Below are positions 3,206-27,638 of a stretch of 38,090 bases of DNA, in pieces (position 1 is the first letter of the stretch; the number at the start of each line of letters is the position of its first letter). Where the stretch lies: assembly GCA_029975295.1 (NCBI GenBank), contig JARKPK010000084.1, positions 1 to 38,090 on the forward strand. The letters are read 5' to 3'. The notes below the pieces were generated by a model that made no database searches, had not been told where the DNA came from, and saw only the letters and a list, made by a program, of their open reading frames with translations. The position numbers were made by a program, and so were the translations under genes. The stretch is from Thermoguttaceae bacterium. Its GTDB lineage: Bacteria; Planctomycetota; Planctomycetia; Pirellulales; Thermoguttaceae.

Positions 3206-3253
3206 CTCCGGGCCGCGTCGGCGCGCAAAGGCGCAACGCCGACGCGGCCGGAG
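3206..3253. repeat. strong hairpin (inverted repeat) upstream of cas4-cas1
   Basis: The arms at 3206-3223 and 3237-3253 pair over 17 bp with a single bulged G, and almost every pair is G-C. The loop is 13 nt. No T-run follows on either strand, so it is not a standard intrinsic terminator. It could be a pause or attenuation site, or a target for RNA processing, between csb2 and cas4-cas1. Confidence 0.7.
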
Positions 3254-3395
3254 CGCACAGCCCAACGGAAACCGGCCGCTGGAGCACGGCGATGCAGCGC
3301 AGCCGGCGCGCAGGATGCGACGCCGAAGCGTTGACGCATCGTGCGCGCGGCGTTGCCGCTGCGCCACAATTGGCCACTGATTGTTTTGGGTCGAG

Positions 3396-3408
3396 TTGTC
3401 AAAGAGCG
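3396..3408 (-). promoter_or_regulatory. boxA-like site just downstream of csb2
   Basis: The minus strand reads CGCTCTTTGACAA, which differs from the rrn-type boxA GCTCTTTAACAA at one position of twelve. It lies 10 nt after the csb2 stop codon, on the transcribed strand. It shares the CGCTCTTTG core with the leader boxA at 204-215. It could let transcription pass the untranslated 493-nt gap, or be a remnant of an older leader. Confidence 0.5.
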
Positions 3409-3418
3409 AACTAGGGGG

Positions 3419-5011: not shown

Positions 5012-5020
5012 GGGTGCACC

Positions 5021-8176
<3,156 letters not shown>

Positions 8177-8180
<4 letters not shown>

Positions 8181-10843: not shown

Positions 10844-11630
10844 CGAGGTTTCTCCGAGGTGACATTCGATCGAGAATCTGGCATTTGGTGCTGTAAATCC
10901 GGAACAGAAGACAATCCCGCATCGACGGGCATGCCGCAAGCGAAGTACCTATACTGTCGGGACATGTTGCCCGTAGCTTACCGATTCTCGTTCAAACTTC
11001 AAGCGCGCAGCTGGATTATCGTCGAGCCGCGTGATGTCTGCTCAGCAACCAGTCGCCAGAACATGGAACGCGATCTACCGACGTTGCGTAATCCTGGCTC
11101 ATCGTTCATCGAAGACGCACGAGTTCGTCGGCTGTCGCAGCTCACTAGAACTACGGGCTACGACATTTTGGCTATTGTACGCGTTACATCCCATTCGGCA
11201 GATTCGTCGCTGTGGCGGCCAAGTTCTCTTCTGCGCGGCCTTGCAGGTTCCAATCGCAAATACAGTGGAACTGGTTCGAATCGGATGATTTCTTGCATCG
11301 AGACGACCTGCGCCCTGAATGGGTACGGCATTGTGCGGGTCAACTCGCCGTCGACAATTGATTGCCCGTTGACCAATCGCGGCGAGCAACGTCAACCGGC
11401 GCGACCCAATGGCCAAACACCGCCGTTGTCAACAATCAGGATTGCGGGCGGTTTCCGGCCGCGATCGTCGCTCGCATCTGCTGCCACGCTGATGAATGCC
11501 GCCACGGCAGAGCCGCAATCTTACTCCAGGCGGCGCCCAGATTCTGTCCAACCCCTTGACGGCGGAGGGGGTCGATTCTGCATTGTCTTGGTCAATAGCT
11601 CTTGCGTTTCTCGGGAAATGTTGAGGGCGA
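10844..11630. other. 787-nt region upstream of cas3 with no recognised gene
   Basis: The promoter of the cas operon should lie at the cas3 end. The minus strand has a TATAGG at 10948-10953 that could be a -10 box, but no good -35 box at the right distance. Open frames cross the region on both strands (plus 10793-11674 partly antisense to cas3, minus 11158-11376), but none resembles a known protein. Parts of 10960-11290 appear less GC-rich than their flanks by eye. This looks like decayed or foreign sequence between the cas operon and the GH97 fragment. Confidence 0.5.
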
Positions 11631-12131: not shown

Positions 12132-15100
12132 TCAATCGGACAATCCCGTTGCCCAGAAGTTGCGAACGGGGCGGCTCCGACTGAAAGCAGTTGTCGGGCG
12201 CATCGCAGAACTGCCGCCTTCAGCAAACGCAGCTACTCTCGGATCACGAAGGCCCACGGCAAGCCGGCGTCGGCCGGGCGTTGTCAGAGAGTCTGTCAAT
12301 TCGTCGGCCAACGAACCAAATCGGGGTTCGAGCAACCAGTCGGCGTATAGCAGCGCGGCGCGCCAGCGCGTGCCCGCGGCCTCAGCGCGTCGGGCGACGT
12401 CGGGGGCATTGGCGACGGGATCGACGACCACGTCCGCGATTGAGCCGGAAGCCAATTCTTCCACCACGGGCGCTGCGGCAGGCTGTGCGGCGACGCCGCT
12501 TTCCGGCACGGCAGACAACAACACCGTTGTCTCCGAGATGACCTGCGGCGCGCCCGCAATTTCGGCCGAGTCGCCCAAACCAACAGAACCGGTTGCGGGC
12601 AACACAGGGGGCGGAACAACGAGCGTTTGCCCCAGCTGCCGCCGAGCCAACAGCACGTCGGTGGCATTGACCAAGCCACTGCCATTGAGATCGCACATCG
12701 CGTCGGCGCCCACGGCGGCGAAAGGCCGAACGGATGCGGCCACATGGTCAACGTCCGCTTGCGTTACTGCGAGGTCGCCGTCAACATCGCCGGGCAACAC
12801 AGCGAAGCGGAATCGAAAATCGCCGCCGGCCGTTCCGTCGCCCGACGGGTAGCTCGCGCCGTTCGGGTCGGAAGGTCCTGCCGGATTCGTCCATTCGCCG
12901 TCAAGACGGTTGCCGGCCCAATCAGTGATCGGGCTGCTGGAGTCGGCGTTGAGAACAAGTTCGAGCACATCGGCGGCGATCGCGGTGGGCAGGGTCCAAG
13001 TGGCGGTGAACGTGGCCGAGTCGTAGCCGAAAACGGCGTCGGACAAGTCGTAAGCGGACCGAGAAACGCCGAACAGCGACAAATCGTCGCGATCAACGCT
13101 CACGTCTTCGCTAAACACGATTCTAATCTGATTGATGTTCGTCCAAGGCGCCGCTTGCCATTGGCTTGCGCCGCTTCCGACGCCAATCGACCAGCCGCCG
13201 ACGTGCATGGGCCCAAGCGAGGCCAGCGAGTCGAGAAAACGCCCCGACCACGCCGTGCTGCCGAGCAACACATTGACCACCTGCGGCGGCGTGGCGTCGA
13301 TCAGCCACGAGGCGGTTGCGCCCGACAACAAATGATTGCCGCCCCCGTCTTCGATGCCTGAACCGCTGGACGGCAATGCCAGCAGATAGTTGCCCGATCG
13401 AGATGTCAGCGGAGCGAGATTGCCCAGTATCCAAACGCGATTGTCTACGGTGGTGAGCGTTTCGGCGCCGGTGAGCAAATTCGATCCGCCGTTTCGAGTC
13501 AGCACCAGGTCGCCCAAATCGAAGTCTTCGATCGGTTCGCTGAAGGTGATGGTCACTTGATCGACGCCGGCTTGGTGCGGTCCGGGGGGCAGCGAGCCGA
13601 TTGCCACCGTCGGTGCGACCGTATCGATATTCACGGCACCGAGGCTTGTCGCGTAACTGACTCGACCGTAGCCATTGTTCACACAGACCGTCAACGGATA
13701 GCTCCCGTCGAGCAGGGGCTGCACAACGTTGTCGGCCAGGCGCCACGTAAAATTGCCGTTGTTGGTCGCAGCGTAGTACACATCTCCCACACGAACGGTC
13801 ACCGCTCCGACAACATCCGATACCGCCCCGCCGACCGACGGCGTCGGGTCGGAGCCATTGTAATTGCCGACGGTTATCGACATCGGTTGGGCGACGACGT
13901 ACGGGGCGGCGGGCACGAGAAACCGACCGTCGATCGGCAAACCATCGAACGTCGTTCCATTGCGTTGCCAGGCCACGGCCAGGTTTCCGCCTCCGCCGCC
14001 CTGTTTTTGAATCGCCTCGATGTAGTAGCGATGTCCGGCGACGAGGTGGACGAAGACGGATTTTTGCGAAGCGAATTTCGTCCATTCTCGAGAGCCTGTC
14101 GAGCCGGAGACCGACGCGATCAGCGTCCGATTGGCCGGGTCGTCGTCGCTGGAAAGCCACAACTCGCTGCTGTCGTCGCTGGCGATGTAGAAGCAGTAAT
14201 CGCCGGTGGTTTCAGGCACGATGTAACCGCGCATGCGTTCGCCCGAATTGGTGAACTGATTGACCGGTGATTCGAAGAGCGATCGCACCTCTTGCTGCGA
14301 AAAGCCGCCGGGAAACGCCGACAGCCCCGTCAAATTGCTCACTGCCGTGCCCGAGCCGATGTTCAGCCAGTACTCGCGGAGGATGCCGCCGCCGTATTTG
14401 AACGACGCTTGCAGGCCGGCAGCGGGAAGCGGACCATCGCGCCCGAGAACGCCGGCCGCAACCACCTGCCAAACGCTTCCCAACCCCATGGTCGGCACAG
14501 TGAGGATCACGGTTCTGCCATCGCCGGCCAACGCCGCCGCCAACGGAGCAAACGGAGCGCCGCCGGAAGATATCGCATAGTTGGCCGCTTGCTCAGCGGC
14601 AGCACGATCGAGCGGCTCGGTGAAGGTCAAGTAAACGGTCGTCGGATCGGTCGCAATGGCCGATGCAATGCCCGCCGGCCCGATCACCAAGCTTGCCGAA
14701 CGGGCGCCTTCGATTCGACTGGCGTTGCGCGCCGAAACCTGGTAAGTGTGGCGCGTCGCGGTCGAGACATTGACGTCGGCAAACGTGGGTTCGGTCGAAT
14801 AGGCATAGACCGCGCCATTGCGATAAATGACGTAGTCGGCCACCACTCCGTCGACTTCGACTGCGGGATTCCACGAAAGCACGACCGAGGCGTTGTCGGC
14901 CCCTACGCGGGCGCGCAGTCCCTCAACCGCCGCCGGCGAGGTCGCGTCGATATCCGGACCAAACGGAGAAAGCCGAATGCCCGGAATCGGCAATGCCGGA
15001 TCGTTGTTTTCCCAAACGCCGCCGGGCAACTGCCAGCGAACAGCCAAGTTGTCGCCGCCGCTTCCCTCCTTGTGCAGCGCCTCGATGTAATAACGGCGTC

Positions 15101-18100
15101 CGGCTTCGAGCTGAATGGGCACGGCATTGTATTGCGTTGTGAACTTCGTCCACTCGCGCGAATTCGTCCATCCGGAAACATAGGCGATCTTCACCTTGTT
15201 ATTCGGATTCTCGTCCGTCGAGAGCCACAATTCACTGCTGTCGTCGCTGGCGATCCAGAAGGTGTAGCCCCCGCTCACCGGCGGAACGATGTAGCCGCGA
15301 ATCCGCGTACCGTAGTAGTCGCCGAAGCTCACCGGCGCTTCGAACGATGCGATGTAGTTCGATCCGCTGGGGTTGTTCGGGAAGTTGGGATTGCTCGTCA
15401 AATCCGCAACCGCCCCGCCCGTGTTGAGTCCCGTCCAGTACTCGCGCAAGAGATAGCCGACGCCCTGCGGCACAAAGGTGAAACTCAGCGGGAGCGCGGC
15501 AGGCAGTTGGCTGCCGGCGCGCGTGGTCAGGCCGTTGATGGTCAGGGCATAGCTGGCGCCCGGCGTCATCGGCGACGCAGTGGTGAGAATGATTCGCGTG
15601 TCGTTGCCGGCCAATGAAACGCCGGCCAACTCGCCTCCGGAAAACACGTAACGGTCGAGGCTTGCCGCCGTCGCAGGATTCAGCGGCTCGCTAAACCGGA
15701 CCTCAATGTGCGTGATGTCGATCAACAGGTACGACACCACGCCGGGAACCGAAGCAACGATCGCAGCGCGGTTGCTCTCGTAGCCGTCGCGATTGACGGC
15801 AGCGACCTGATAGACGTAAGAGACAGCGGGCTGCACGCCCGAGTCTGTGTACGCGGGGACGGACGAGACGCCGATCGCGATGCCGTCGCGATAAATCACG
15901 TAATGGCCGACCGGGCTGTCAACGTCGACTGAAGGAGCCCAACTCAACGACACCTGAGCGCCGGGAGCGAATTGGGCTGTTGCAACGAGCCCGTCCGGCA
16001 CGCTGGGCGGAGTTTTGTCGATCGGCACATTTTCCCCGCCGGGAGTCCCTCCCAACTGGGTTGCGCGCCAGTTGATCGAGTCGTTGCCGTACCCAGCGGG
16101 TCGAATGCGCATCAGTGCCGGACCGTTGCCGTCGGGCTTGCTCGGCCAGTTGTTCCGATCGCTGTAATTGACTCGGTCGATTTCATAGCGGGGAATGACG
16201 CCCGGATCGGGATTGCCTGCCTGATAAAGCCTTAGCATCTCGCCGTCGTTGTTCAATCCGCCGCTATACACCCCGGCGACGGGAATATTGTTGGCAGCGA
16301 TGCCATAGCGGGCGTCGAACGCGGCGTAGTCTCGAACAAGCACCAGCCGCTCGCCCGGCGCCAGCGTCGTGCGGCCGCTTCTGGTCGCGAACGAGTCGAG
16401 CAAGGGCGAAGCGGCAACCACCTCGTGGCCCGGCCTGACGAACTTGACGGTGTCAGCGATTGTCCAACCGCCGACGGCCGTAAGCCCTCGGGCGAGTTGC
16501 ACGCTGCCCGCGCCGGCAAACGCGAAACTGCCCAGACTGACCCAAACGTCGGCGGCCGAAATCGCCGGCTGATTCTGATCGACCGTTACAGTGATCGGCC
16601 CGCCGACTGCGTTGATTGTGTACCGGGCCGAGTCGTCCAAGTCGCGGCGTTTGCCGTCGCCATCGATCAAGGTGAAATGGACGAGAACTTCGTACTCCCC
16701 GTTGAGCAATTCCGGACAGTTCCAAGTGGCCGTCGCTCCCGACTCCAACGTCCACAGCTCGCTGCCCATGCCGTTGGAGTACCACCCGAAACTGAAGCCG
16801 ACGCCGGCGCCGATGTGGAACTCGGCAAGCGAGAGGACTGATTCGGAGCGGTTGTAAAGCTCGATGAATTCGAATGCGTCGGCGTCAGTGAATCCGGCCG
16901 CGATTTCCGCGGAGGTGGGAGCGGCCGGGTGATACATGATTTCACTGAGAACCAACGGCGCAATATACGGCACGCTGTTGGCCCCGCCGGAGTAATCCGG
17001 CCCGGTCCCGAATGTGGGCGTTTGCAAGAGTGTAAAGTCCGTGCCGCCCGTCGAACGCGTGTGCAGCCCGGTGGAAACGCCCTCGGGCGCGGCGCCGAAA
17101 TCGACCCGTTCGCGATAGCCCCCCGCAGCGCCGTTGGCGTTTGACGACAGGTAAACCTCGTCGCCGTGCTCGCTCAGCGCGAAAGGCGCACGGCAGCCGG
17201 GGTCGGCCGTGTTGCCGAAGTGACTTAGCTCGGTAAGCACCAAGTAGCCTTTGGGCGCTATGATCGTGCCGGCGGCGATCTGATACATTTGCAGATCACT
17301 CCGACGATCGCTGAGGAACCAACCGCCAATGTCGATCGGCTGGTCGGTCGTGTTGTGCAGTTCAATCATGTCGCCCTGCGTCGGGGACGTGTGCGAGAGC
17401 ACCTCGTTGATGATGATCGCGCCGGGCGCAACCAGAACGTCGTCGTACCCCGGCGTGCCGCCCGGCGCCGCGCTGGAGCGCCACCCTCCGCTTTCGTCCC
17501 ACAACGACAGCGACTGACCCGGGCTGCGCACCGTCAGCGAAAATCCGTCGCCATCGGTGTGTTTATACCAATCGTCGCTGTAGGTGAACTCGTGGATCAC
17601 GCCGCCCATCGGCGACTCGAGGATGATCTTCTCGCCGACGCCGTCGAGCCGGCCGCTGTATTGGCCGACCACCAACAAGCTTTCCCAAGCATCGCCAAAC
17701 CGGGCGCGCAAGGCGTCGCCGTAACGAAACCGAAACGCCGCAGCATTGGCCACGACGAGCTTGAACTGCCCCGGCTCGATGATCACATTGGGGAACTCAA
17801 ACGAGACCCCTTTGGTAAGTCGCAGGCCGCCAAGCGGCAACGGCTGCGTTCCGATATTGGTGATTTCCAGGTACTCGAAAAGGTTTGCGTCGAAAAACCC
17901 GGCGGCGATCTCCGCGGCACTCGGCGCGGCGGGAGTGTACATCAGCTCCGTCAGTCGGATCGACGGCGCGAGGTTGGCGTAGAACGCCGCGACCGACAAC
18001 GCGCTCCACTGGCCGCCGTCGAAGGCTCGGGCGGCAAGTGTTGCACTTTGGCTCGGAACGATCGGCCCAACATAGGCGATGGCCGCCGGATTCAGTCCGC

Positions 18101-21100
18101 CGCCCGGAAGCCGCGGATCTGTTCCATCAAGCGTATAGTAAACCGTGCCGCTCGGGGCCGTGATCGACAACACATCGCCCGGGTCGAACGCGCCGCCATG
18201 CTGCGCCCGGCCGTTGAGCGCGAAGGCCGGGGCGTCGATTTGCGGGTAGAGCCCTGCGTCGCGGAGCTGCTGCAAGACGACGGCAGTTCGTTGCGGCAGA
18301 TAGGTGGTCAGCGTCCAATCGCGCTGGGCGGTCCACATCGCCGGCGTGTCGGGCGTCGTTTGATTCACGTCGCCCCAGCGGGCCGACTCGGCAATGACGG
18401 CCAGCTCAATTGTCCGGGCCAACTCGGCGTAACGGGCGATCGAGGCCTCGGGCGTCAGGGCGCCGCCGTTGAACATGTGCCGCTGCACGTGGTCGGCAAA
18501 CATCATGCGAAACTCGGGAACCGCAACAAGGTAGTAGTAGGGCCGCGCAATCATCACGTTCACGCCCAACTGGTTCTTGTACAGATCCGAATTGAGCCCG
18601 ACGGACCATTCCGCGTCCCAACTGAACGACTTGTAGCCGGTGCTGTCGGGACCATTGGGGCGCGCGGCATAGAAGTTGTGGCTCGGCCAATCGCTGTTGC
18701 CCAAGTAGAAGTTCAACAGCATGTAGTCGATGTAATTGTGCATGTCGAGCAACACCGGGTAGTTCGTGTTGCGCGATCCGTCGGGGTTCTGCCCCATAAG
18801 CGCGTAGAACATCTCGGCATTGTAAACGCCCGATCCAAAGGCCAGACCGCCGTTGACCGTGTCGCCCAAAAGGCGAAAATCGGCCGGGTTGAACGCCGTT
18901 TTCGCGCCCGAAGCGGCAAACAGTTCCACGCCGGCGTCGCCGTCGTGTTGGTAATACACCAGTTCGACGGTGTAAACGCCCGCGCGCGGAATGACCACCG
19001 TCGTCAACGTATCGGTCATGCCGCGCAGGCCGTCGTAACGCATTTCTCCCAGCACGTTGACTCCGTCGCGCAGCCGGAAAAGAAATCCGTCGTCGCAGAA
19101 GACGCCAAACGTCCACGTTCCGGCGGTTGCAACGGTCACCGCCGCCTCCACGGCAACAACAAAGTCTTCAACGGCGTTCCGCCCATCGCTGCCGACGCCC
19201 GGAAACAGCGTATCGGCCGCAAAGTGCCCTTGATTGCCGGTATCGAGGAAGTTGACGACGTTGCGGTATTCCCGCGCCGCGGAAATGTGCTTGGAGGGGT
19301 CGTCGATCACGCTCTGCGCAGCAGCCAGGTTCGTAATCGGAATGTTCGCCTGATAGACCGTGACCGCGGCCAGATCGGCGAGCGATGCGCCCAAGCCGAG
19401 CTTGGCGTGGTCGCCCACCAGCCGCCATGCTGTGGTTTCGCTCCACGACGACCACTGGCCGGGCGCAGCGAAGACTTCGATTTCGGCCCCGCCCGTTCTC
19501 TGAAAATAAACGAGGCGCAGCCGGTAGGCGCCGGGCGTGTCGATAAAGACGGACTGCAACGTGTCGCCAGGGGTGCGAGTGCCGGCGTAGGAAACGTCGA
19601 GCACGGTTTCGTCGTCGCGAGTCAAAGTCAGCCGAAAGTCCTCGTCGCTGCTCACGCCGAACGTCCACCACCCAGCCGCAGGAATGGAAACGGTTGTTCG
19701 CGATTCCATCACTACGTTCTGCACCGCCACGCCGCTGCTGCCGAAACCGCTTGTGCCGGGAAATACAACGCTGCTGCCGAACCGACCGTCGCTGCCTGTG
19801 CTCAAAAAGTTCACAGTCGCCGTATTCTGCGTGCTCGTCCACGCCTGCACATTGCGGCGGACGGTGATGGCGCCGGTGGCGATCGTCGCCGGCGCGCCAA
19901 GCACCTTGTACGAAAACGTGTTCGCCGTTGCCGCAGTTATCACGAATGTGCCGTTGTATTGCCCCTGAGAAGCGCCCGAAATGTTCACCACGTCGCCGTC
20001 ACTGAAACCGTGGCCGGGCAAATGAACGATCGCCACAGCCCCGCTGCGGGTGATTCCGTAAGGTTGCGCGAAGATCGCGCCGCTGGCCGGCGTTGACGGC
20101 GTGCCGGAGACGGTGTAGCTGAACGTGTTGGGCGTAACATTGCTGATCACAAACGAGCCGTTGTAGGCCGACTCGTTCGCGCCGCTGATCAGTATCGTTT
20201 CGCCGTTGACGAACCCATGCCCCGCCAGCGTGACCGTCGCCGTCGTGCCCACGCGGGTGATGCCGGCCACGGGCAGAGTCATCGCTTGGGCGAAAAGCGC
20301 GCCCCGTGCCGGCGCGCTCGGGGCGCTGGACATGCTGTAGTTGAACGTGTCGGCGGTGACGCCGCTGATGACAAACGTGCCGTTGTAGGCCGACTCGCCG
20401 GCGCCGCTGATCTGCACCCGTTGACCGTTGACGAAACCGTGTCCGGCCAGGGTCACGGTAGCCGTCGTGCCTGCGCTGGTGATGCTTGCGACAGCCAACC
20501 TCGGCGCTGCGCCGGCGGGCGAGAGCGAAGGTTGCGTGATGATGTTTTCCGCATCGGCGATGCTCGCAACATTGATCACCGACGCCAAGGCCGCCAGCCC
20601 CGGGTTCGTTGTCGCCGTAACATTGCTGTTGACCAATTGCCACGCCGTCGTGGCCGACCAAGAGCTGAAGCTTCCCTTCGCAGCATAAAGCTCCAACTCG
20701 GCACCGGCGGTCGTCCCCTGAAAATACACCAGCCGCAACGTGTACAGGCCGGCCTCGGTGATGTTGACCGTTTGCAGGGTGTCGCCCGGGGTGCGCAAGC
20801 CGCTGTAGGACGAATCGAGCACGGTCGTGTCGTTGCGAATCAGTTGCAGCCGGAAGCCGTCGTCGCTATTGACGCCGAACGTCCAAGCGCCCGTCGTGGG
20901 GATGAAAATCGAACTGTTCGCCTCGATCACGAAGCCTTGCCCGGGCGTGCCGGCGGCCGTTCCGGGAAATTGGCTGTTGTTGCTGGTGTAGCGGCCGTCG
21001 GCGCCCACGTTCAGAAAGTTGATCGTGCTGAACACGCTCGAATACGACCACGCTTGCTTCGCCGACGACTTGAGGATGTCTTCGGCAGCGGCCAGAGTCG

Positions 21101-24100
21101 TCAGGGGCAGCACCAGATACGAAGCGATTCCACCTCCGGCCGTGTCGCCGACCAATCGCCAGTTGCTTGTTTGGCTCCACGAGCTGTAGTTCCCCTGCGC
21201 GGCGAAGAGTTCCAATTCGGACCCGCCGCTGCGCTGAAAATACACGAGCCGCAATCGATAATCGCCTGCCTGGGTGATGTTGAACGCCTGGATTTTGTCG
21301 GCAGGCGAACTCATCGTCGTGTCGTTGGCAAGCGTGTACGTGTCGGTGCCGTTGGTCAAGGTCAGCCGAAATCCATCGTCGCTGTTGACGCCGAACGACC
21401 AGTACCCGGCTGCGCCAATGGTGATGCTGCTGATGATTTCGACGACGAAATCATTGGTCGCCGTCGTACCGGCGCCGGGAAAACCGGCGTTGCCGGTGGT
21501 GAAACGGCCGTCCGCTCCGTTATTCAAATAGTTCACCGTGGCGGTGTTGTGTTGGCTGACCAGCACCTGCTTCGAAGCCGTGCTGATCACGCTTTCGGCC
21601 TCGGCCAAGTTGCCCACCGTGGTGTTCGACTTGTAATAAATCGACGTGAAACCCGGCGTACTCGAAGCTGCCGCGGCATAATAGGTCACGTTGAACCCGG
21701 GCGCGCCCGCCTGGTAGATCCGATTGGCGACGCCCCAATTCGTTTTCGCCAGCAAATCGTTCCATGCGGGCAACTCGCTGGTGACGCCATCGGAGTAGCC
21801 GGCGTTGTTCGACTCCCAATCGTCTTTGTCGCCGCCCATGTAATCGGCGGCGAACGACTCGTCCGGTCGCTCTGTCGCCTGATAGATGCCCCAATACAAT
21901 CCATCGACAAACAGATGGACCCAACGCGAGTGATGGTCGGGTTGCCCCATGGCCAAATGCGTATCGGAGGCGAAAGTGTCGCGGATGTACTGCACGATCG
22001 CTCCGTTGCCGGGCCAGGAATCGTTGAACTGCGACCGGAGGATGATGGAATCGAACTGCTCAACTGCCCCAGCGCCGAACAGCGACGTTTGCAGCTTCGT
22101 CGGCCCGTAGTCGCCGCTGAAGACAATGCGGAACGAATGTTTTTTGTACTGCGGCCGCCGTCCCACGCCGCCGTAAATGTTCACCCCGGCGTTGATCTGG
22201 AAATCGTCGCCGGCGCCCGGTCCAAAGTATTCCAACGACCCGGGCACGCGCATCGGATCGCCGTTGTAGTCAGGATTCAGGCTGATGGCCTCGTTGGCAT
22301 AGATGCCGTACTGCGGATCGAAAAGGTGATCGCGGTGCAGCGACAACGACATCGACGGGAGCGACAACAAAGCGTCATTAAGCAGATTCTTGTACGCCGG
22401 GTCTTCGGTAATCCGCGGATCCATGGCGTAGTCGGCCGGCCACGAAGCCCAATTCGACGGAAACCCATCGGGCGTTGCCGACTGTCCGATGATGTCGGCC
22501 AAAAAGATGTACGTCGAGGAAACCGTATCGCTTTTCTCGAAGCCGTCTTTGACGGAAACGGCGCGAACCACCGTCGTCGTATTGAGCGTCAACGGCACGG
22601 TGTAGCGTTGGCCCAACCGGGTGGCTCCGATCGATCCCGTCGCCGGCGACGACGGCGTGCCGGTGATCGTGTACGCGAAGGTGTTGGCGGTGACGTTGGT
22701 GATGACGAAATCGCCGTTGTACTCGGTTTGCACCGCGCCCGAGATTCGAATGCGGTCGCCCTCGGAAAACCCGTGGCCCGTCGAGGTCACGGTTGCCGTC
22801 GTGCCGGAGCGGACGATGCCGCTGACCGACCGATCAACCTTGACCACGCTCAACGCGCCGGAGGCTGCGACGCCGGGCGCCGTCGCCATCGTATAGGTGA
22901 ACGTGTTTGCCGTCACATTGCTGATGGCGTACACGCCGTTGTACGCTGCCTGGGTCGCCCCCGAAATGCATACGAGCGAGCCTTCGGTATAGCCGTGGCC
23001 CGTCGAGGTCACCGTCGCCGTCGTGCCGCTCGATGTGATGCTGCTGATCGAACGGGTGATGTAGGGCATCGACGGATCGGAGCCGTCGAGCGTGAAGTAA
23101 ATGGTCGCGCCCGGCGTGCTCGATGTCAGAACAAGAGCGACGGATTGGTCGTAGAACCCGTGCGGCGCGCTGAAGGTGGGCGCGTCGGCCTTCTGCCATG
23201 TGTCCGAAGTGTTGGCCGTTCCGGGGGTCGGCGTTGTGAAGAAATGTCGCCCGAGCGAAGTCGAAGCGATTCGCGCGATCTTCGGCGCGATCAACAGATC
23301 GCCGTCGCTGCCCGGGGCGAGCAGAGCCTGGATCGCCAGAACGTTCCCGCTCGCTTGCAGGCGATTCGGGTTGCTGTCGTCAAGAAACGCGCTGAGGTCG
23401 ATCGTCTCGTAGGTTGACGATTGAACCTCGCTGGTGCGCGGCGCCAGCGCCCGGCTGTCCCACGCAACGCTGGCGGGGGCGTTGCGACGGGCGATCTCCA
23501 CTCCGTTGAGATAGGCGACGTAGCCGTCGTCGTAGGCCATCATCAGGACAAGCGATTCCTCCGGCGACAAGTCGGGCGCGTCAAAGGTGATCCGGGTGTA
23601 TAGCGAGCTGCCGCCCGCCTGCTCAATGGCGTTGCGGACGTCGGTTCGGACGAGGCTTGCCACGCTATGGGCCGGTCCGGTGAAAGGAGAACTTCTCACC
23701 GCCAGACCGCCGTTGGCCGTATCGCCGACAAGCCGAAACGTGTTCGTGTTGAACGCCAGATCGTACCGCAACGAGGTAATCGTGCCCGTGGCCGGCGAAC
23801 TCGGCGCGCCGCTGATCGTGTAGGTGTAGGTGTTGGTCGTCACCCCAGAAATGACGAAGAAACCGTTGTATTCCGGCTGATTGGCGCCGGCGATTTGGAT
23901 GATGTTGCCGTTGGCATAGCCGTGATTGTTGCTGGTTACTGTGACCGTGCTGCCCGAACGGGTGATGCTGCTGATCGAGCGCGGCGTGTTCGTCGCTGCC
24001 GGCGCAGCAAACAGTTCGACCGCTGCAGAGCTCGCACCCTGGAAATAGACCAAGTTCAATTCGTATTCGCCCGGCGCGGCGAAATAGGCCACGCCGATCG

Positions 24101-25151
24101 AGTCGGCCGTACCCCGCGTGCCATCGAACTGCAACGCCCCGCCGACGATTGCCGTGCCGGTTCCGCTGGCAGCCACGAACGAAGCGCCGTTGATGCTCAG
24201 GCGAAAGCCGTCGTCGCTGTTGACGCCGAACATCCAATAGCCGGCCGTCGGAATCGAAACCCTTCCGTTCGCCTTCAGCACGTAGTTGCTCTCAACCGCG
24301 CCGATGGTTGCGCCTGGGAACGTGACGTCGTAAATGAAACGCCCGCGACCGCCCGTGTTGAAGTAGTTGATCGTCGCTGCGGTTTCGGTGCTGCACCAGC
24401 TTTGCATAGCGGGGTCGGACAGAATCGCATCGGCCATCGCCAAGTTGCCGATGCTGCCCGAAATGCTCGATTTGTAGCCCCAAACGGCAAAGCCGGGCAC
24501 GAGTTCGCCATATCCCAGCCCCGTTGGCCCCTGCTGCCACGAGATGTCGGAGAACCCTGGTTGGGTCCATGTGGCGCCGAGCGACCCGTCCACCGGCACG
24601 TACCATCGGGCAATCGCCCCCAAGTCAACCAGCGTTGTTTCGGAGTACACTTGACCAACGCCGTAGGAAACGTCCGTCTGTTGCGACGGATAGGGAAGGT
24701 AGGAGAAGACCGTCGTTCCCAACGGGTCCTGCAATCGCAAGTTCGCGCCGTCTTTGTCGAGGTTGAAACTCGTATGCAACTCGCCGTTGGGATCCCTAAG
24801 ATCTCGCCCTGTGGCAAAGAGCACGCGGAACTCGCCCGGGCCTAAGCTCATGCTCGGAAAGACCCAGGTGGTGTTCTTATAAACCAGCCGCCAGTTGCTC
24901 AGATCGACCGACTCTTCGGTATCGGGATTGTGGATTTCGAGCCAATCGGAATACTGCCCAAACGCGTCTTGAAGGCCGCTTTTGTTGCTGGCCAGCAACT
25001 CGCTGATGATCGGCATCGCAGCCAGCAAGCAGCGAGGTTCGAGCGATTCGAAGACTAATCGCCTTCCACCCGTTCCACGAGGCCGCCGCTTCGGTTGGGG
25101 AGCGCTTTTCGCTGGCAAGGAACTCAATGCGTCGCGCCACGTGTACAACAT
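12132..25151 (-). CDS. giant secreted LEPR-x-LL / CotH / lamin-tail / PA14 / dockerin protein
   Basis: The product is 4,339 residues. Order along the protein: LEPRCLLA motif at 37-44 (the planctomycete LEPR-x-LL N-terminus of surface proteins); lamin-tail-like domain 46-160; a beta-sandwich 175-640 split by an insert; a chitobiase/hexosaminidase C-terminal-like domain 655-885 split by an insert; a CotH-kinase-like domain about 886-2200 split by a 960-residue insert; a second chitobiase-like domain 2305-2392; three more lamin-tail domains (2395-2570, 2577-2720, 2730-3040), the last split by a golvesin-like insert; a tandem pair of Fn3 + SbsA-Ig + PA14 cassettes (3043-3750); Ig-like domains; a type I dockerin (4118-4176, GDVDGDLAVTQADV and DLNGSGLVNATDV); and a Pro/Ala-rich tail. 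The ATG at 25151 has AGGAG 7 nt upstream. A standard Sec peptide is not obvious. Binding or adhesion to polysaccharide is likely; the function is not known. Confidence 0.9.
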   Translation of the reverse strand: MLYTWRDALSSLPAKSAPQPKRRPRGTGGRRLVFESLEPRCLLAAMPIISELLASNKSGLQDAFGQYSDWLEIHNPDTEESVDLSNWRLVYKNTTWVFPSMSLGPGEFRVLFATGRDLRDPNGELHTSFNLDKDGANLRLQDPLGTTVFSYLPYPSQQTDVSYGVGQVYSETTLVDLGAIARWYVPVDGSLGATWTQPGFSDISWQQGPTGLGYGELVPGFAVWGYKSSISGSIGNLAMADAILSDPAMQSWCSTETAATINYFNTGGRGRFIYDVTFPGATIGAVESNYVLKANGRVSIPTAGYWMFGVNSDDGFRLSINGASFVAASGTGTAIVGGALQFDGTRGTADSIGVAYFAAPGEYELNLVYFQGASSAAVELFAAPAATNTPRSISSITRSGSTVTVTSNNHGYANGNIIQIAGANQPEYNGFFVISGVTTNTYTYTISGAPSSPATGTITSLRYDLAFNTNTFRLVGDTANGGLAVRSSPFTGPAHSVASLVRTDVRNAIEQAGGSSLYTRITFDAPDLSPEESLVLMMAYDDGYVAYLNGVEIARRNAPASVAWDSRALAPRTSEVQSSTYETIDLSAFLDDSNPNRLQASGNVLAIQALLAPGSDGDLLIAPKIARIASTSLGRHFFTTPTPGTANTSDTWQKADAPTFSAPHGFYDQSVALVLTSSTPGATIYFTLDGSDPSMPYITRSISSITSSGTTATVTSTGHGYTEGSLVCISGATQAAYNGVYAISNVTANTFTYTMATAPGVAASGALSVVKVDRSVSGIVRSGTTATVTSTGHGFSEGDRIRISGAVQTEYNGDFVITNVTANTFAYTITGTPSSPATGSIGATRLGQRYTVPLTLNTTTVVRAVSVKDGFEKSDTVSSTYIFLADIIGQSATPDGFPSNWASWPADYAMDPRITEDPAYKNLLNDALLSLPSMSLSLHRDHLFDPQYGIYANEAISLNPDYNGDPMRVPGSLEYFGPGAGDDFQINAGVNIYGGVGRRPQYKKHSFRIVFSGDYGPTKLQTSLFGAGAVEQFDSIILRSQFNDSWPGNGAIVQYIRDTFASDTHLAMGQPDHHSRWVHLFVDGLYWGIYQATERPDESFAADYMGGDKDDWESNNAGYSDGVTSELPAWNDLLAKTNWGVANRIYQAGAPGFNVTYYAAAASSTPGFTSIYYKSNTTVGNLAEAESVISTASKQVLVSQHNTATVNYLNNGADGRFTTGNAGFPGAGTTATNDFVVEIISSITIGAAGYWSFGVNSDDGFRLTLTNGTDTYTLANDTTMSSPADKIQAFNITQAGDYRLRLVYFQRSGGSELELFAAQGNYSSWSQTSNWRLVGDTAGGGIASYLVLPLTTLAAAEDILKSSAKQAWSYSSVFSTINFLNVGADGRYTSNNSQFPGTAAGTPGQGFVIEANSSIFIPTTGAWTFGVNSDDGFRLQLIRNDTTVLDSSYSGLRTPGDTLQTVNITEAGLYTLRLVYFQGTTAGAELELYAAKGSFSSWSATTAWQLVNSNVTATTNPGLAALASVINVASIADAENIITQPSLSPAGAAPRLAVASITSAGTTATVTLAGHGFVNGQRVQISGAGESAYNGTFVISGVTADTFNYSMSSAPSAPARGALFAQAMTLPVAGITRVGTTATVTLAGHGFVNGETILISGANESAYNGSFVISNVTPNTFSYTVSGTPSTPASGAIFAQPYGITRSGAVAIVHLPGHGFSDGDVVNISGASQGQYNGTFVITAATANTFSYKVLGAPATIATGAITVRRNVQAWTSTQNTATVNFLSTGSDGRFGSSVVFPGTSGFGSSGVAVQNVVMESRTTVSIPAAGWWTFGVSSDEDFRLTLTRDDETVLDVSYAGTRTPGDTLQSVFIDTPGAYRLRLVYFQRTGGAEIEVFAAPGQWSSWSETTAWRLVGDHAKLGLGASLADLAAVTVYQANIPITNLAAAQSVIDDPSKHISAAREYRNVVNFLDTGNQGHFAADTLFPGVGSDGRNAVEDFVVAVEAAVTVATAGTWTFGVFCDDGFLFRLRDGVNVLGEMRYDGLRGMTDTLTTVVIPRAGVYTVELVYYQHDGDAGVELFAASGAKTAFNPADFRLLGDTVNGGLAFGSGVYNAEMFYALMGQNPDGSRNTNYPVLLDMHNYIDYMLLNFYLGNSDWPSHNFYAARPNGPDSTGYKSFSWDAEWSVGLNSDLYKNQLGVNVMIARPYYYLVAVPEFRMMFADHVQRHMFNGGALTPEASIARYAELARTIELAVIAESARWGDVNQTTPDTPAMWTAQRDWTLTTYLPQRTAVVLQQLRDAGLYPQIDAPAFALNGRAQHGGAFDPGDVLSITAPSGTVYYTLDGTDPRLPGGGLNPAAIAYVGPIVPSQSATLAARAFDGGQWSALSVAAFYANLAPSIRLTELMYTPAAPSAAEIAAGFFDANLFEYLEITNIGTQPLPLGGLRLTKGVSFEFPNVIIEPGQFKLVVANAAAFRFRYGDALRARFGDAWESLLVVGQYSGRLDGVGEKIILESPMGGVIHEFTYSDDWYKHTDGDGFSLTVRSPGQSLSLWDESGGWRSSAAPGGTPGYDDVLVAPGAIIINEVLSHTSPTQGDMIELHNTTDQPIDIGGWFLSDRRSDLQMYQIAAGTIIAPKGYLVLTELSHFGNTADPGCRAPFALSEHGDEVYLSSNANGAAGGYRERVDFGAAPEGVSTGLHTRSTGGTDFTLLQTPTFGTGPDYSGGANSVPYIAPLVLSEIMYHPAAPTSAEIAAGFTDADAFEFIELYNRSESVLSLAEFHIGAGVGFSFGWYSNGMGSELWTLESGATATWNCPELLNGEYEVLVHFTLIDGDGKRRDLDDSARYTINAVGGPITVTVDQNQPAISAADVWVSLGSFAFAGAGSVQLARGLTAVGGWTIADTVKFVRPGHEVVAASPLLDSFATRSGRTTLAPGERLVLVRDYAAFDARYGIAANNIPVAGVYSGGLNNDGEMLRLYQAGNPDPGVIPRYEIDRVNYSDRNNWPSKPDGNGPALMRIRPAGYGNDSINWRATQLGGTPGGENVPIDKTPPSVPDGLVATAQFAPGAQVSLSWAPSVDVDSPVGHYVIYRDGIAIGVSSVPAYTDSGVQPAVSYVYQVAAVNRDGYESNRAAIVASVPGVVSYLLIDITHIEVRFSEPLNPATAASLDRYVFSGGELAGVSLAGNDTRIILTTASPMTPGASYALTINGLTTRAGSQLPAALPLSFTFVPQGVGYLLREYWTGLNTGGAVADLTSNPNFPNNPSGSNYIASFEAPVSFGDYYGTRIRGYIVPPVSGGYTFWIASDDSSELWLSTDENPNNKVKIAYVSGWTNSREWTKFTTQYNAVPIQLEAGRRYYIEALHKEGSGGDNLAVRWQLPGGVWENNDPALPIPGIRLSPFGPDIDATSPAAVEGLRARVGADNASVVLSWNPAVEVDGVVADYVIYRNGAVYAYSTEPTFADVNVSTATRHTYQVSARNASRIEGARSASLVIGPAGIASAIATDPTTVYLTFTEPLDRAAAEQAANYAISSGGAPFAPLAAALAGDGRTVILTVPTMGLGSVWQVVAAGVLGRDGPLPAAGLQASFKYGGGILREYWLNIGSGTAVSNLTGLSAFPGGFSQQEVRSLFESPVNQFTNSGERMRGYIVPETTGDYCFYIASDDSSELWLSSDDDPANRTLIASVSGSTGSREWTKFASQKSVFVHLVAGHRYYIEAIQKQGGGGGNLAVAWQRNGTTFDGLPIDGRFLVPAAPYVVAQPMSITVGNYNGSDPTPSVGGAVSDVVGAVTVRVGDVYYAATNNGNFTWRLADNVVQPLLDGSYPLTVCVNNGYGRVSYATSLGAVNIDTVAPTVAIGSLPPGPHQAGVDQVTITFSEPIEDFDLGDLVLTRNGGSNLLTGAETLTTVDNRVWILGNLAPLTSRSGNYLLALPSSGSGIEDGGGNHLLSGATASWLIDATPPQVVNVLLGSTAWSGRFLDSLASLGPMHVGGWSIGVGSGASQWQAAPWTNINQIRIVFSEDVSVDRDDLSLFGVSRSAYDLSDAVFGYDSATFTATWTLPTAIAADVLELVLNADSSSPITDWAGNRLDGEWTNPAGPSDPNGASYPSGDGTAGGDFRFRFAVLPGDVDGDLAVTQADVDHVAASVRPFAAVGADAMCDLNGSGLVNATDVLLARRQLGQTLVVPPPVLPATGSVGLGDSAEIAGAPQVISETTVLLSAVPESGVAAQPAAAPVVEELASGSIADVVVDPVANAPDVARRAEAAGTRWRAALLYADWLLEPRFGSLADELTDSLTTPGRRRLAVGLRDPRVAAFAEGGSSAMRPTTAFSRSRPVRNFWATGLSD
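13902..16025 (-). repeat. tandem duplication of an Fn3 + SbsA-Ig + PA14 cassette
   Basis: Residues 3043-3400 and 3401-3750 have the same three-domain order. Paired motifs are VGHYVIYRDGIAIG / VADYVIYRNGAVYA (Fn3), VRFSEPLNPA / LTFTEPLDRA (Ig) and LREYWTGLNTGGAV / LREYWLNIGSGTAV plus ASDDSSELWLS in both (PA14). It is a tandem duplication that has since diverged. Confidence 0.75.
16392..16787 (-). repeat. golvesin-like module inserted in the fourth lamin-tail domain
   Basis: This encodes residues about 2789-2920. The lamin-tail domain runs FIELYNRSESVLSLAEFHI, is interrupted by this block, and resumes with GRTTLAPGERLVLVRDYAAF. The block has the golvesin-type pattern: GATATWNCPELLNGEYEVLV, then ITVTVDQN, VSLGSFAFAGAG and WTIADTVKFVRPG. 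Confidence 0.65.
18828..21713 (-). repeat. modules U2-U5 inserted in the CotH-like domain
   Basis: This encodes residues 1147-2108, about 962 residues. Four U modules in tandem start at GNLAEAESVI, TTLAAAEDIL, ASIADAENII and TNLAAAQSVI, each with an NFL/NYL-x-x-G motif, a W-x-FGV core (FGVNSDDGFRL in U2 and U3) and a VYFQ-like strand. The flanks AWNDLLAKTNWGVANRIYQ and NAEMFYALMGQNPDGSRNTN belong to one continuous CotH-like domain in other planctomycete proteins. The third unit (U4) carries three B modules. Confidence 0.75.
19851..20501 (-). repeat. modules B4-B6, nested inside U4
   Basis: This encodes residues 1551-1767, three B modules in tandem, each with an HGF-(V/S)-(N/D)-G core, YNG(T/S)FVI and NTF-x-Y. 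They separate IADAENIITQPSLSP from QAWTSTQNTATVNFL, which are contiguous in the equivalent place of U3. B4 and B5 are the most alike. Confidence 0.75.
22608..23060 (-). repeat. modules B2 and B3 inserted in a chitobiase-type domain
   Basis: This encodes residues 698-848, two B modules in tandem. They interrupt the chitobiase/hexosaminidase C-terminal-like fold between IYFTLDGSDPSMPY and YTVPLTLNTTTVVRAVSVKD, which are normally separated by only a few residues. The two copies are also alike at the DNA level: GTGGCCCGTCGAGGTCAC occurs in both (near 22773 and 22996). Confidence 0.75.
23688..24476 (-). repeat. module U1 inserted in the first beta-sandwich domain (carries B1)
   Basis: This encodes residues 226-488 of the giant protein. 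The flanks read as one domain once it is removed: GPTGLGYGELVPG before it and SLVRTDVRNAIEQAGGSSLY after it. The module starts at a GNLAMADAIL motif, has the core TAGYWMFGVNSDDGFRL and VYFQG, and ends in FRLVGDTANGGLA. It contains a smaller B module (listed next). The same U architecture recurs four times at 18828-21713. Confidence 0.75.
23754..23981 (-). repeat. module B1, nested inside U1
   Basis: This encodes residues 391-466. B modules are about 70 residues and start with a SISSITRSG-like segment, then TVTVTSNNHGYANG, then YNGFFVISGVTTNTYTYTIS and end near SPATGTI. B1 sits between FAAPAATNTP and LAFNTNTFRLVGD of U1, sequences that are almost adjacent in the sister U modules that lack a B module. 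Confidence 0.75.
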
Positions 25152-25742
25152 CGTCCACTCCTGCTTCGGAGCCAGTGCGCGAGAAGCGATGTCCCGCCCG
25201 CTGCCGGGCTTCTCGCGGTTGGCATCCCGCTCGAAGCTTCACGGCCTTAGCTCCCCTCGATTGACGGGGTCCCCAACCGTTGCTCAACGTGAGCGAGAGC
25301 GCTTTGGCCAACAGCCCTAACGGCACGCTCACGAATTGCCAACAATACTCTAGTGTCAGTCAGAAAAAAACACCAGTTCTTTATGCCAAAGCTGCCCGAG
25401 GTGTGAAGTCGGCTGCGGCCGTTTGTCGGCAGACGACAGTTGCAGCGAACCTGCCCAGGCGTAGAATGGACCCCGCGTCTGGTCAAAGTCTCGACGGACG
25501 GACCGAACGATCGCGGCGACAATACGCCGAGCACCAAAGGGCATGAATCCGCCGGCAATAATCGAGCGGCAAGGGGCGAGGTTTTCATCGCCGCGAGATT
25601 TGTCCGGGCCGCGCGCTCCGACCGGCTCGGGTTTTCCCGGTGTGGTTGCGACTTCGCTCGATCTCGGCTCGATCTCTATGGAAGCTCGGTTGGGGGTCCG
25701 TTGGGGCTCGGTCTCAGTGTCTCTGGAGAAGGGTGTCGAATA
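25152..25742. other. 591-nt divergent intergenic region
   Basis: It separates the leftward LEPR gene from the rightward sulfatase gene and should hold both promoters. Small open frames (minus 25247-25588, plus 25543-25743) look like nothing known. The second ends on the sulfatase start codon but has unconvincing composition and was not called. One weak sigma-70-like pair is listed separately. Confidence 0.5.
25440..25467 (+). promoter_or_regulatory. weak sigma-70-like promoter candidate for the sulfatase gene
   Basis: TTGCAG (25440-25445) and TAGAAT (25462-25467) are separated by 16 nt and read towards the sulfatase, whose start is 275 nt downstream. The -35 box is only partly consensus, so this is tentative. 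Confidence 0.25.
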
Positions 25743-27638
25743 ATGGGTCATGCTGCTAACGTGGGATGGGTGGTCGCAGCATTGGTCTTGATCGGGGCCG
25801 CACCGCCCACCGTGGCTGCCGCCGACCCGCCACAAGCAAACGCCGACTCGACGCGGCCGAATATCGTGTGGATCTCGTGCGAAGACACTTCGCCGTGGTT
25901 GGGGTTCTGCGGCGACACGTTTGCCCGCACGCCCAACCTCGATGCCTTGGCCGCCCGCGGAGTTCACTACACGCAGGCCTATGCCACGGCGCCGGTTTGC
26001 TCGCCCGCCCGATTCGCCATCATCACGGGCTGCTATGCCACCTCGCACGGCACGCAGCGGCTGCGATCAACCTTCCCCATGCCCGATTCAGTGCGAGGGT
26101 TGCCGTCGTACTTGCGCAAAGCGGGCTACTACTGCACAAACAACGCCAAGACCGACTACAACACGGCCGCCGAGGGTCGCCTAATTGTCGAATCGTGGGA
26201 CGCATGCAGTGATCGGGCGCACTGGCGCAATCGCAAGCCCGGTCAACCGTTCTTCGCCGTTTTCAACTTGATGGAAACTCATCAGAGCCGCGTCTTCGAG
26301 AGCGCGGCGGCGCCGTCGCTTCCGCCTTCGCTGCGGCACGAACCGGCCGAAGCGCCGTTGCCGCCGTTCTACCCCGAAACTGCGGCGGCGCGGCGCACCA
26401 TGGCCCGGGTTTACGACTGCATCTCGGCCATGGATGCTCGCGTGGGCGAAATATTGGCCGAGCTCGATCAGGCAGGGCTCCGAGAAGAAACCATCGTCTT
26501 CTTTTGGGGCGACCACGGCCAGGGAATCCCTCGCGGCAAGCGCACCCTGTGGGACACCGGGTTGAAGGTTCCGCTCGTCGTCTGGTTCCCCGAGAAATAC
26601 CGCCGTCTTTCCCCTGTCGCTGCGGGCGAAATGTGCGATCGGTTGGTCAGCCTAATGGACCTCGGGCCCACGGTGCTTAGCCTCGCAGGCATACCGGTTC
26701 CGGCGGGCCTCGACGGGCAAGCCTTTCTGGGCAAGGCCGACAGCAGTCGGCGCGAGTACGTCTTCGGGGCTCGCGACCGGGTGGACGAGGCACTTGATCT
26801 GAGCCGTTCGGTGCGCGACGCGCGATACCTCTATATCCGCAATTTCATGCCCGATCTTTCATGGAATCAGCCCGAGCGATTTTCCGACCAGCTTGAGTTG
26901 CGCCGCGAAATCGGCCGATTGGCTGCCGCGGGCAAGCTCAATGCGGCGCAGCTCACCTACGCCGGTCCGAACAAGCCGCGCGAAGCGCTTTACGATTCGG
27001 AAAAAGACCCATGGCAAATCCACAATGTTGCCGATGATCCCGCCTACCGACCAGTGCTCGAACGAATGCGCAAAGCGTTGCGAAAATGGCAGTTGGAATC
27101 ACGCGACTTGGGGCTGATGCACGAGGCCGAGGCCGCTCGGCTCGTTGCCGATGGTCGGCCGTTGATCGAGGTCGCTCGCGACGAAGGCGTTTATCCGCTT
27201 GCCCGTGTGCTCGACACGGCCCAACGCGTTGGGCTTTCAGGCGAAGTCCCTGAGTTTGCCCGGCGCTTGGCCGACGCGAATCCAACGGTGCGATACTGGG
27301 CGATTGTTGGGCTTCGCGCGGCAGGAGACGAGGCGATCGCGGAAAAAACGGCTATCGAGCGGGCCATGGCCGATCCGTCGCTGCCAGTGCAGGTTGAGGC
27401 AGCGGGCATCCTCGCCCGCTGGGGACAGAGCCAGGCTGTCTCCCACTTGGCAACGGTTCTGCGATCGGGCGATGAGCATGCCCGGCTGCATGCCGCCCGA
27501 ACACTGCAGCTCTTGGGTGAGAAAGCCCGCGCGGCCCTGCCCGCAATGCAAGAAGCCCTCAAGCAAGGCAATATGTTCATCCGGTTCAGCTTGGAAGCTG
27601 CGATCGAGGCCTTGAACCCTGGGCAAGCGAGGCCGTAG
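25743..27638 (+). CDS. secreted sulfatase with C-terminal HEAT-like repeats
   Basis: The product is 631 residues. Sulfatases hydrolyse sulfate esters, here probably on polysaccharides in the periplasm or outside the cell. An N-terminal signal peptide is visible (hydrophobic VGWVVAALVLIGAAPPTVAA, likely cleavage near residue 27). The formylglycine motif is CSPAR at 86-90, so Cys86 would be the converted catalytic residue. Metal ligands expected in the family are met by Glu47-Asp48 and by Asp257-His258 in WGDHGQG. After the sulfatase domain, about 483-631 reads as helical HEAT/PBS-lyase-type repeats (YWAIVGLRAAGDEA, VQVEAAGILARWG, HAARTLQLLGEKA). The ATG at 25743 was chosen because it begins the signal peptide; an open frame extends upstream without coding character. 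The substrate cannot be told. It is divergent from the LEPR gene. Confidence 0.93.
   Translation: MGHAANVGWVVAALVLIGAAPPTVAAADPPQANADSTRPNIVWISCEDTSPWLGFCGDTFARTPNLDALAARGVHYTQAYATAPVCSPARFAIITGCYATSHGTQRLRSTFPMPDSVRGLPSYLRKAGYYCTNNAKTDYNTAAEGRLIVESWDACSDRAHWRNRKPGQPFFAVFNLMETHQSRVFESAAAPSLPPSLRHEPAEAPLPPFYPETAAARRTMARVYDCISAMDARVGEILAELDQAGLREETIVFFWGDHGQGIPRGKRTLWDTGLKVPLVVWFPEKYRRLSPVAAGEMCDRLVSLMDLGPTVLSLAGIPVPAGLDGQAFLGKADSSRREYVFGARDRVDEALDLSRSVRDARYLYIRNFMPDLSWNQPERFSDQLELRREIGRLAAAGKLNAAQLTYAGPNKPREALYDSEKDPWQIHNVADDPAYRPVLERMRKALRKWQLESRDLGLMHEAEAARLVADGRPLIEVARDEGVYPLARVLDTAQRVGLSGEVPEFARRLADANPTVRYWAIVGLRAAGDEAIAEKTAIERAMADPSLPVQVEAAGILARWGQSQAVSHLATVLRSGDEHARLHAARTLQLLGEKARAALPAMQEALKQGNMFIRFSLEAAIEALNPGQARP

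Follow-up and report, generated by a model that had tools for sequence, protein, structure and literature searches.

In-frame domain insertions at two levels in a giant planctomycete protein, and a recurrently filled insertion region in its relatives

An open reading frame (ORF) of 4339 residues, with no stop inside, was found on the minus strand (12132-25151) of the 38,090-nucleotide stretch of Thermoguttaceae bacterium DNA analysed here (contig JARKPK010000084.1), which we call the window. Four of its domains, a GH2-type beta-sandwich, a chitobiase-type domain, a CotH-like domain and a lamin-tail domain, were interrupted in frame by other domains, some of which were themselves interrupted; homologues had the corresponding sites empty or differently filled, and the first sandwich of these proteins repeatedly carried unrelated cargo. 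The ORF most likely encodes a secreted multi-lectin planctomycete surface protein. Our preferred explanation, to which we assign a probability of about 0.7, is that self-folding modules were captured, rarely and in frame, at permissive loops, and were then inherited, duplicated in tandem and spread among paralogues.

Architecture of the giant ORF and its inserted modules

The ORF had a LEPR-type signal at the N-terminus and a dockerin-like repeat near the C-terminus (Pfam, both below the cut-off), with lamin-tail, sandwich, chitobiase-type, CotH, fn3, GLEYA and PA14 domains between them; the Pfam matches included CotH, LTD, CHB_HEX_C_1, PA14 and Golvesin_C. The original prediction had claimed that four domains were split and that both halves of each were still readable, and this was borne out when the split hosts and their inserts were mapped with the help of Pfam and homologues. 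The inserts were five modules of a type called U, six of a type called B and one golvesin-like domain, so that the claim that U and B account for most inserts held, except at the lamin-tail domain, which was cut by the golvesin-like domain. U1 lay in the sandwich and carried B1, the chitobiase-type domain contained B2-B3, CotH contained U2-U5, and U4 carried B4-B6, giving the two levels, with B inside U, that had been proposed; insertion in loops and conservation of the frame were likewise supported. The U2-U5, B2-B3 and B4-B6 modules formed tandem runs, each run within one insertion site. The features are the following (coordinates of the window, residues of the ORF):

12132-25151, minus strand: giant ORF, 4339 aa (ORF call and Pfam)
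25017-25067, minus strand: LEPR-type planctomycete extracellular signal, residues 29-45 (PF07595, below cut-off)
24489-24638, minus strand: GH2-type beta-sandwich, N half (SandN), residues 172-221
23697-24485, minus strand: U1 (PA14-like), inside the sandwich and carrying B1, residues 223-485
23766-23981, minus strand: B1 (FCCH-fold barrel, as modelled for B3) inside U1, residues 391-462
23319-23693, minus strand: GH2-type beta-sandwich, C half (SandC), residues 487-611
23061-23189, minus strand: chitobiase-type domain, N half, residues 655-697
22839-23054, minus strand: B2, residues 700-771
22617-22832, minus strand: B3, residues 774-845, 222 nt from B2 (folded alone)
22500-22616, minus strand: chitobiase-type domain, C half, residues 846-884
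21705-22352, minus strand: CotH-like domain, N part, residues 934-1149
21123-21650, minus strand: U2 in CotH, residues 1168-1343
20619-21110, minus strand: U3 in CotH, residues 1348-1511
19386-20600, minus strand: U4 in CotH, carrying B4-B6, residues 1518-1922
20283-20498, minus strand: B4 inside U4, residues 1552-1623
20061-20276, minus strand: B5 inside U4, residues 1626-1697, 222 nt from B4
19854-20066, minus strand: B6 inside U4, residues 1696-1766
18837-19364, minus strand: U5 in CotH, residues 1930-2105 (U profile; no Pfam family at E 0.01)
18243-18830, minus strand: CotH-like domain, C part, residues 2108-2303
16788-16961, minus strand: lamin-tail domain 3, N half, residues 2731-2788
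16386-16787, minus strand: Golvesin_C-like insert in lamin-tail domain 3, residues 2789-2922 (134 residues)
16038-16385, minus strand: lamin-tail domain 3, C half, residues 2923-3038
12633-12794, minus strand: Dockerin_1-like repeat, residues 4120-4173 (below Pfam cut-off)

The giant gene was adjoined by a gene for a sulfatase with C-terminal HEAT repeats (25440-27638, plus strand), and a second giant ORF of at least 3382 aa, with seven passenger-associated-transport repeat matches, ran off the contig (27945-38090, plus strand). Downstream of the giant ORF, a type I-like CRISPR-Cas operon (1207-10939, minus strand) contained a fused Cas4-Cas1, Cas_GSU0053, a Cas3-like helicase whose HD match lay towards the end of the chain, and a pair of large ORFs, of 530 and 759 aa, that had no Pfam match.

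All five U (about 165-185 residues, excluding their own inserts) matched the U profile at E 2e-37 or better, and all six B (71-72 residues) had E-values of 5e-35 or lower with the B profile; these matches are partly by construction because both profiles were built from window copies (U1 was left out of the U profile); independent homologues of U and of B exist outside the giant ORF. The cut-off of Pfam PF07691 (24 bits) was reached by four of the five U (U1 34.4, U2 24.5, U3 37.9 and U4 24.2 bits), and U5 had no match to this family at E 0.01. In the AlphaFold2 model U1 had the PA14 beta-sandwich fold, aligning with the PA14 lectin 6m8m over 153/177 residues (Z 16.1, 2.9 Å), and the U profile matched 6m8m by sequence at E 0.0024. 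Strong U matches in the source genome (>120 bits) numbered five in the window gene, two in C164 and one in C76, besides three weak ones (20-22 bits) in other places, and U was present in 17 of the 119 family genomes at E 0.001. The U of C76 contains what we take to be a DNRLRE-like domain.

An Asp-Asp pair was present in U1, U2, U3 and U5 and Asp-Glu in U4, as read from the sequence, in which cis geometry is not visible; in MpPA14, two consecutive Asp joined by a cis peptide bind Ca (PMC8092209). A glycan-binding role is proposed, four of the five U having retained the two Asp to which Ca is bound in PA14 lectins, and the inserts would likely serve to multiply and vary putative glycan-binding surfaces, with B as a possible spacer or accessory barrel.

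Folded alone, B3 reached a pLDDT of 93.1, and the fold obtained matched both the FCCH of the ubiquitin-activating enzyme UBA6 (Z 11.0, 77 residues, 2.1 Å) and the phi92 endosialidase barrel (Z 10.7, 79 residues, 2.0 Å). As modelled, B is a small beta-barrel of the E1-FCCH/endosialidase fold; the FCCH and endosialidase barrels themselves sit lodged within larger folds. By sequence B remained below the Pfam cut-offs, the first member scoring 16.1 against 29.5 bits for E1_FCCH (PF16190) and 16.6 against 35 for End_beta_barrel (PF12195), with best E-values over the six members of 0.012 and 0.0035, respectively. Matches of B to PHROG families included virion structural and tail proteins, those of B3 in BFVD included baseplate, fibre and tail proteins, and at least 413 stretches related to B were found in viral contigs. 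The 80 viral loci that were kept contained 85 ORFs with B, of which 62 had one B each. The proteins L073-L075 presumably resemble prophage structural proteins. B would most likely come from a pool of phage structural proteins, where its close sequence relatives are common.

Within one bacterial family B had six hosts, namely U, the chitobiase-type, lamin-tail and CotH domains, an unnamed 'LTVGG' domain and a protein which we take to be an RHS-like repeat protein with B inside (L062, G015:C145). Its distribution was patchy, 5 of the 119 family genomes having it; a phylum scan for B covered no more than 15 candidates per genome. In a paralogous ORF of 4265 aa in C76 of the source genome (L021), a lamin-tail domain is interrupted at one place by B-B and at another by B, and the tandem B pairs of C76 and G002:C50 occupy the same place in the same domain.

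Split hosts, empty sites and the sandwich socket

Structure prediction of the split regions, named as a check in the original prediction, was carried out on residues 170-886 (717 residues; AlphaFold2, alignment of 57 rows, mean pLDDT 83.8). The match to the continuous GH2 N-terminal sandwich 5czk (Z 12.6, 140 residues, 2.8 Å) spanned model residues 1-461, and the match to 6m8m spanned model residues 48-319, a range containing B1. Because the aligned lengths were shorter than the first-to-last residue spans, we infer that U1 and B1 were skipped in these matches. The model thus supports the packing of the sandwich halves as one domain and of U1 round B1, and the two nesting levels are supported by structure, since the sandwich and PA14 matches span the inserts. 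The chitobiase halves were also modelled, and among the matches listed (model residues 1-478) none covered the chitobiase part, which does not count against its fold.

The CotH parts (934-1117 and 2107-2303) aligned with the uninterrupted CotH of L105 at 29-52% identity per block; a bridging alignment was obtained with two of the three homologues tried (L105 and, similarly, L102), the alignment with L118 having entered the inserts. The parts of lamin-tail domain 3 aligned with uninterrupted domains in two of the five homologues tried (G002:C26 and G002:C18), the alignment with C76 being scattered, and the golvesin insert of this domain was common to G018:C87 and G002:C9. When uninterrupted and B-bearing chitobiase domains were aligned jointly with phage B, the uninterrupted rows were misaligned.

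A profile search for uninterrupted versions, which the original prediction had also named, found homologues with an empty site for every host type. Compared with these, a single B represented a net gain of 71-78 residues (71-73 in LTVGG, 72 and 76 in the second of the lamin-tail sites, and 72 for CotH, 77 for U1 and 78 for the chitobiase-type domain). Two B added 149 to 155 residues and three B added 226, and little host sequence was visibly lost at the B sites. One protein (L060, G018:C170) contained the LTVGG domain twice, once with B and once without it. One lamin-tail domain was filled in C76 of the source genome and in G002 and empty in G018 and G010, and the LTVGG domain showed the reverse pattern across genomes. 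Nested insertion was therefore seen in both of its aspects, hosts being continuous in homologues and, in the case of the sandwich and U1, modelled as folded across the insert; these are the opposites of the two outcomes that the original prediction had named against itself, halves that do not pack together and homologues that always contain the inserts.

The insertion region of the sandwich, here called the socket, was surveyed twice. A scan with the sandwich-U-chitobiase region gave 79 loci, by title mostly planctomycete or verrucomicrobial, with one Acidobacteria, three Nealsonbacteria and two named only 'bacterium'. The first sandwich contained U in 63 loci and another domain in 13, was empty in one and unjudgeable in two, and 63/79 overstates U because the query contained U and one of the two peptide patterns was U-specific. 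Second sandwiches were empty in 30 of the 31 judged and had U in one, those without a recognised N half being left unjudged. Because the first query held U, the survey was repeated with a sandwich-only profile, on 40 regions from five genomes chosen by score and not comprising all matches; 38 of 47 sandwiches were filled (three of them ambiguous), seven were empty and two lacked the N half. There was no adjoining chitobiase match in any of the seven empty sandwiches, nor in six of the filled ones. A whole second sandwich lay ahead of the C half in L325, L337 and L352, an arrangement that may be tandem and not nested.

The pooled, non-redundant sockets adjoining a chitobiase domain numbered 102, the majority of planctomycete or verrucomicrobial origin, of which 61 carried U, 40 other cargo and one was empty; five twice-fetched sockets had been removed before this count, and percentages come from a recount without them and without the empty L175. 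By BLAST the 102 sockets comprised eight cargo clusters and the empty socket. Among the non-U cargo were lamin-tail-like, F5/8 type C and laminin-G-like domains and weakly matching DUF1349-like ones (LTD and DUF1349 below the Pfam cut-offs). Among the eight clusters, L151 and L177+L346 look alike, and both L151 and L177 match Laminin_G_3; in the largest cluster, composite inserts connect U with cargo that begins with LTD. Rather than a single exact point, the socket is two neighbouring positions beside one strand: a short strand G-V/I/L-G-F/Y preceded the cargo in 52 of the 61 sockets with U and 13 of the 40 others, and the cargo came before that strand in 22 of these 40, mostly LTD-led, the simple strand pattern having missed the strand in several rows. 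Clean borders were seen when the empty L175 was compared with L178, which carries F5/8C. U in the sandwich is widespread and not local to the giant ORF, and the U1-type insertion, being present in many planctomycete and verrucomicrobial records, is therefore probably old.

Some further observations were made during these surveys. In L160, L167, L347 and L350 an LTD-like cargo start was followed by another sandwich, by eye a sandwich within a sandwich. G010 and G018, which belong to the same family, had at least 36 sandwich matches each, a large paralogous surface-protein family. L107, L156 and L157 are records titled Candidatus Nealsonbacteria bin.20 whose genes are planctomycete-type giants, so that the title fits them badly.

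Origin and spread of the inserts

We propose a scaffold made of the sandwich, chitobiase-type, CotH and lamin-tail domains, with small self-folding modules plugged into its surface loops. The first arrivals would have been rare in-frame captures through illegitimate recombination, which could survive since a compact domain can be accommodated in a loop while the host stays folded, and later copies may have come from tandem duplication and from recombination between giant genes that are paralogues. Tandem gains are evident in the several U of CotH and in the B doublets and the B triplet; the claim that the arrangement is different from simple tandem domain gain is true only of the module that reached each site first. 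The suggestion that coding segments moved as units within and between domains stands in so far as the modules are lodged as units in other domains, but nothing recent or active is visible.

Cargo was the same in 57 of 57 filled scaffold pairs at 62-97% identity, in 157 of 178 pairs at 55-62% and in 347 of 733 at 50-55%, with sharing underestimated in the low identity bins because relatedness was judged by BLASTP only; the most similar scaffold pair with unrelated cargo was 57.3% identical. Since cargo was always the same at 62% scaffold identity or more, exchange or insertion is slow. The CotH-lodged U, except for U5, which was unplaced, formed one clade (0.92) beside sandwich U of the same lineage, in a tree where L115 repeats G002:C26, suggesting one within-family transfer followed by tandem duplication. 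B6, which is lodged in U4, grouped with B modules from lamin-tail domains of other giant genes (UFBoot 95-96, IQ-TREE), and this grouping is the strongest indication that B passed from one host domain to another and from gene to gene. A clade of 13 giant-protein B had a UFBoot of 62, and the deep B nodes were weak, as the module has 72 residues. FastTree joined nine B of giant proteins in one clade (0.93), which was absent as such from the IQ-TREE tree of 43 tips, where only inner nodes (95-96) hold, and which was not retained.

Diversity in the socket could also come mainly from exchange and not from new insertion, if paralogous scaffolds recombined at conserved flanks and swapped their cargo. 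The number of sandwich matches in each of G010 and G018, the presence of eight cargo clusters in one socket region and the finding that scaffolds up to 57% identical (DNA 67-70% over about 580-690 nt) carry cargo without BLAST similarity are in favour of such exchange. We nevertheless regard it as unlikely to be the main source, because no recent exchange is visible, cargo being the same in all filled scaffold pairs above 57.3% identity, because LTD-led cargo lies mostly across a strand from the U position, and because shared flanks cannot explain B sites in several unrelated domains.

At the DNA level, the absence of a transposase and of target duplications, reported in the original prediction, was confirmed within the scope covered. 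Transposase families were not among the Pfam matches of the eight neighbouring ORFs scanned, and the comparison of module boundaries that it had recommended, made on the 12 insert blocks, gave a mean longest shared border word of 5.4 against 5.5 in controls, words below about 5 nt being undetectable. One of the 12 blocks, B1, had a 9-nt word common to both borders, a length reached by 4% of controls. The repeats of at least 24 nt in the ORF amounted to one inverted pair, with arms 5.8 kb apart, and no DNA scar backs any recombination route. In L062 an 8-nt word was common to both B borders, and 13% of controls reach 8 nt.

These data also bear on the idea that B, possibly together with U, is a coding element able to move at the DNA level in its own right and to enter genes in frame, in the manner of PARCELs or the Rickettsia palindromic elements, which occur as coding modules in many host genes. 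Such mobility would suit the six host domain types of B in one bacterial family and the spacing of tandem B, which was exactly 222 nt in four of the five tandem pairs, from three genes (in the window, 20061-20498 and 22617-23054). It is, however, very improbable: dyad symmetry was absent from the DNA of 17 B units (z between -2.01 and 0.53), the 12 blocks had no excess of border repeats, and the source genome contained nine copies in two genes only (six in the window gene and three in C76), so that DNA folding, border repeats and genome copy number all leave this reading unsupported. The B pairs listed above 55% amino acid identity still differed at 25-43% of nucleotides, the most similar of them having 75% DNA identity. 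The GC3 of B, taken as a possible sign of recent arrival, was mostly near or above that of the host gene and in a few cases slightly below it (B3 0.89, against a block mean of 0.773, SD 0.048), a pattern that points neither way.

Inheritance of ancient, fixed composite domains, with no insertion within visible history, agrees with the presence of U in the sandwich socket across planctomycete and verrucomicrobial records and with the insertion points of U that paralogues share in the sandwich and in CotH, but it has hardly any probability left, being already contradicted for B and for the CotH-lodged U by sites empty in homologues, even within one protein, by the varying number of U in CotH (0, 1, 2 or 4 among homologues) and by the patchiness of B.

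Comparison with known systems

In this family about 100 versions of a single insertion region can be aligned, in empty, single, composite and nested states, and a plug occurs in several unrelated hosts, so that one can measure in what order and how fast domains are inserted and how well insertion is tolerated. The family also provides protein engineering with a catalogue of permissive loops found in nature, and it suggests a module pool common to phage proteins and the giant surface proteins of bacteria. More speculatively, and with more doubt than confidence on our part, the GH2-sandwich socket and a phage-derived FCCH-fold plug might constitute an evolvable display system in giant surface proteins of the PVC group, in which dozens of paralogous scaffolds acquire, nest and swap cargo that binds glycans while phages and hosts share a pool of loop-insertable domains.

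Domain insertion and nesting are already known, and it is the socket and the recurrent phage-type plug that look new, no description of either having been found by title or abstract start in literature that included few subscription journals and no preprints. A1-B-A2 architectures, with nesting up to six levels, are established (Schaeffer et al. 2026, PMC13114784). As in the giant ORF, a domain interrupts another and the inserts are smaller than the hosts (PMC13114784); in contrast, the giant-ORF family has a socket region that takes cargo of several types unrelated to each other, and a single plug that enters a number of unrelated hosts within the gene family. The words PA14 and lamin are absent from the main text of that paper.

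PARCELs resemble B in being coding modules in many host genes (PMC2996958), but their DNA has dyad symmetry (PMC2996958) and that of B has none. GH3 beta-glucosidases, for which two independent insertions were proposed, resemble the giant ORF in having PA14 within another domain (PMC6987092); they differ in that the host is an enzyme, and the relevant passages mention no domain inside PA14 (PMC6987092). The evolved Dit of lactococcal phages is similar in that a carbohydrate-binding module lies inside a structural protein in some relatives only (PMC6669499), and differs in being a phage baseplate protein, with nesting unmentioned in the passages concerned (PMC6669499). The BEAN and HABAS insertional domains of RNA polymerase represent, like B, a small domain type inserted at several non-equivalent places (PMC11515920), by a mechanism called unclear in section 3.1 of that article (PMC11515920). 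Their insertions were few and tapered off after early evolution (PMC11515920), whereas those of the giant-ORF family vary between genera of one family and are found in proteins predicted to be exported.
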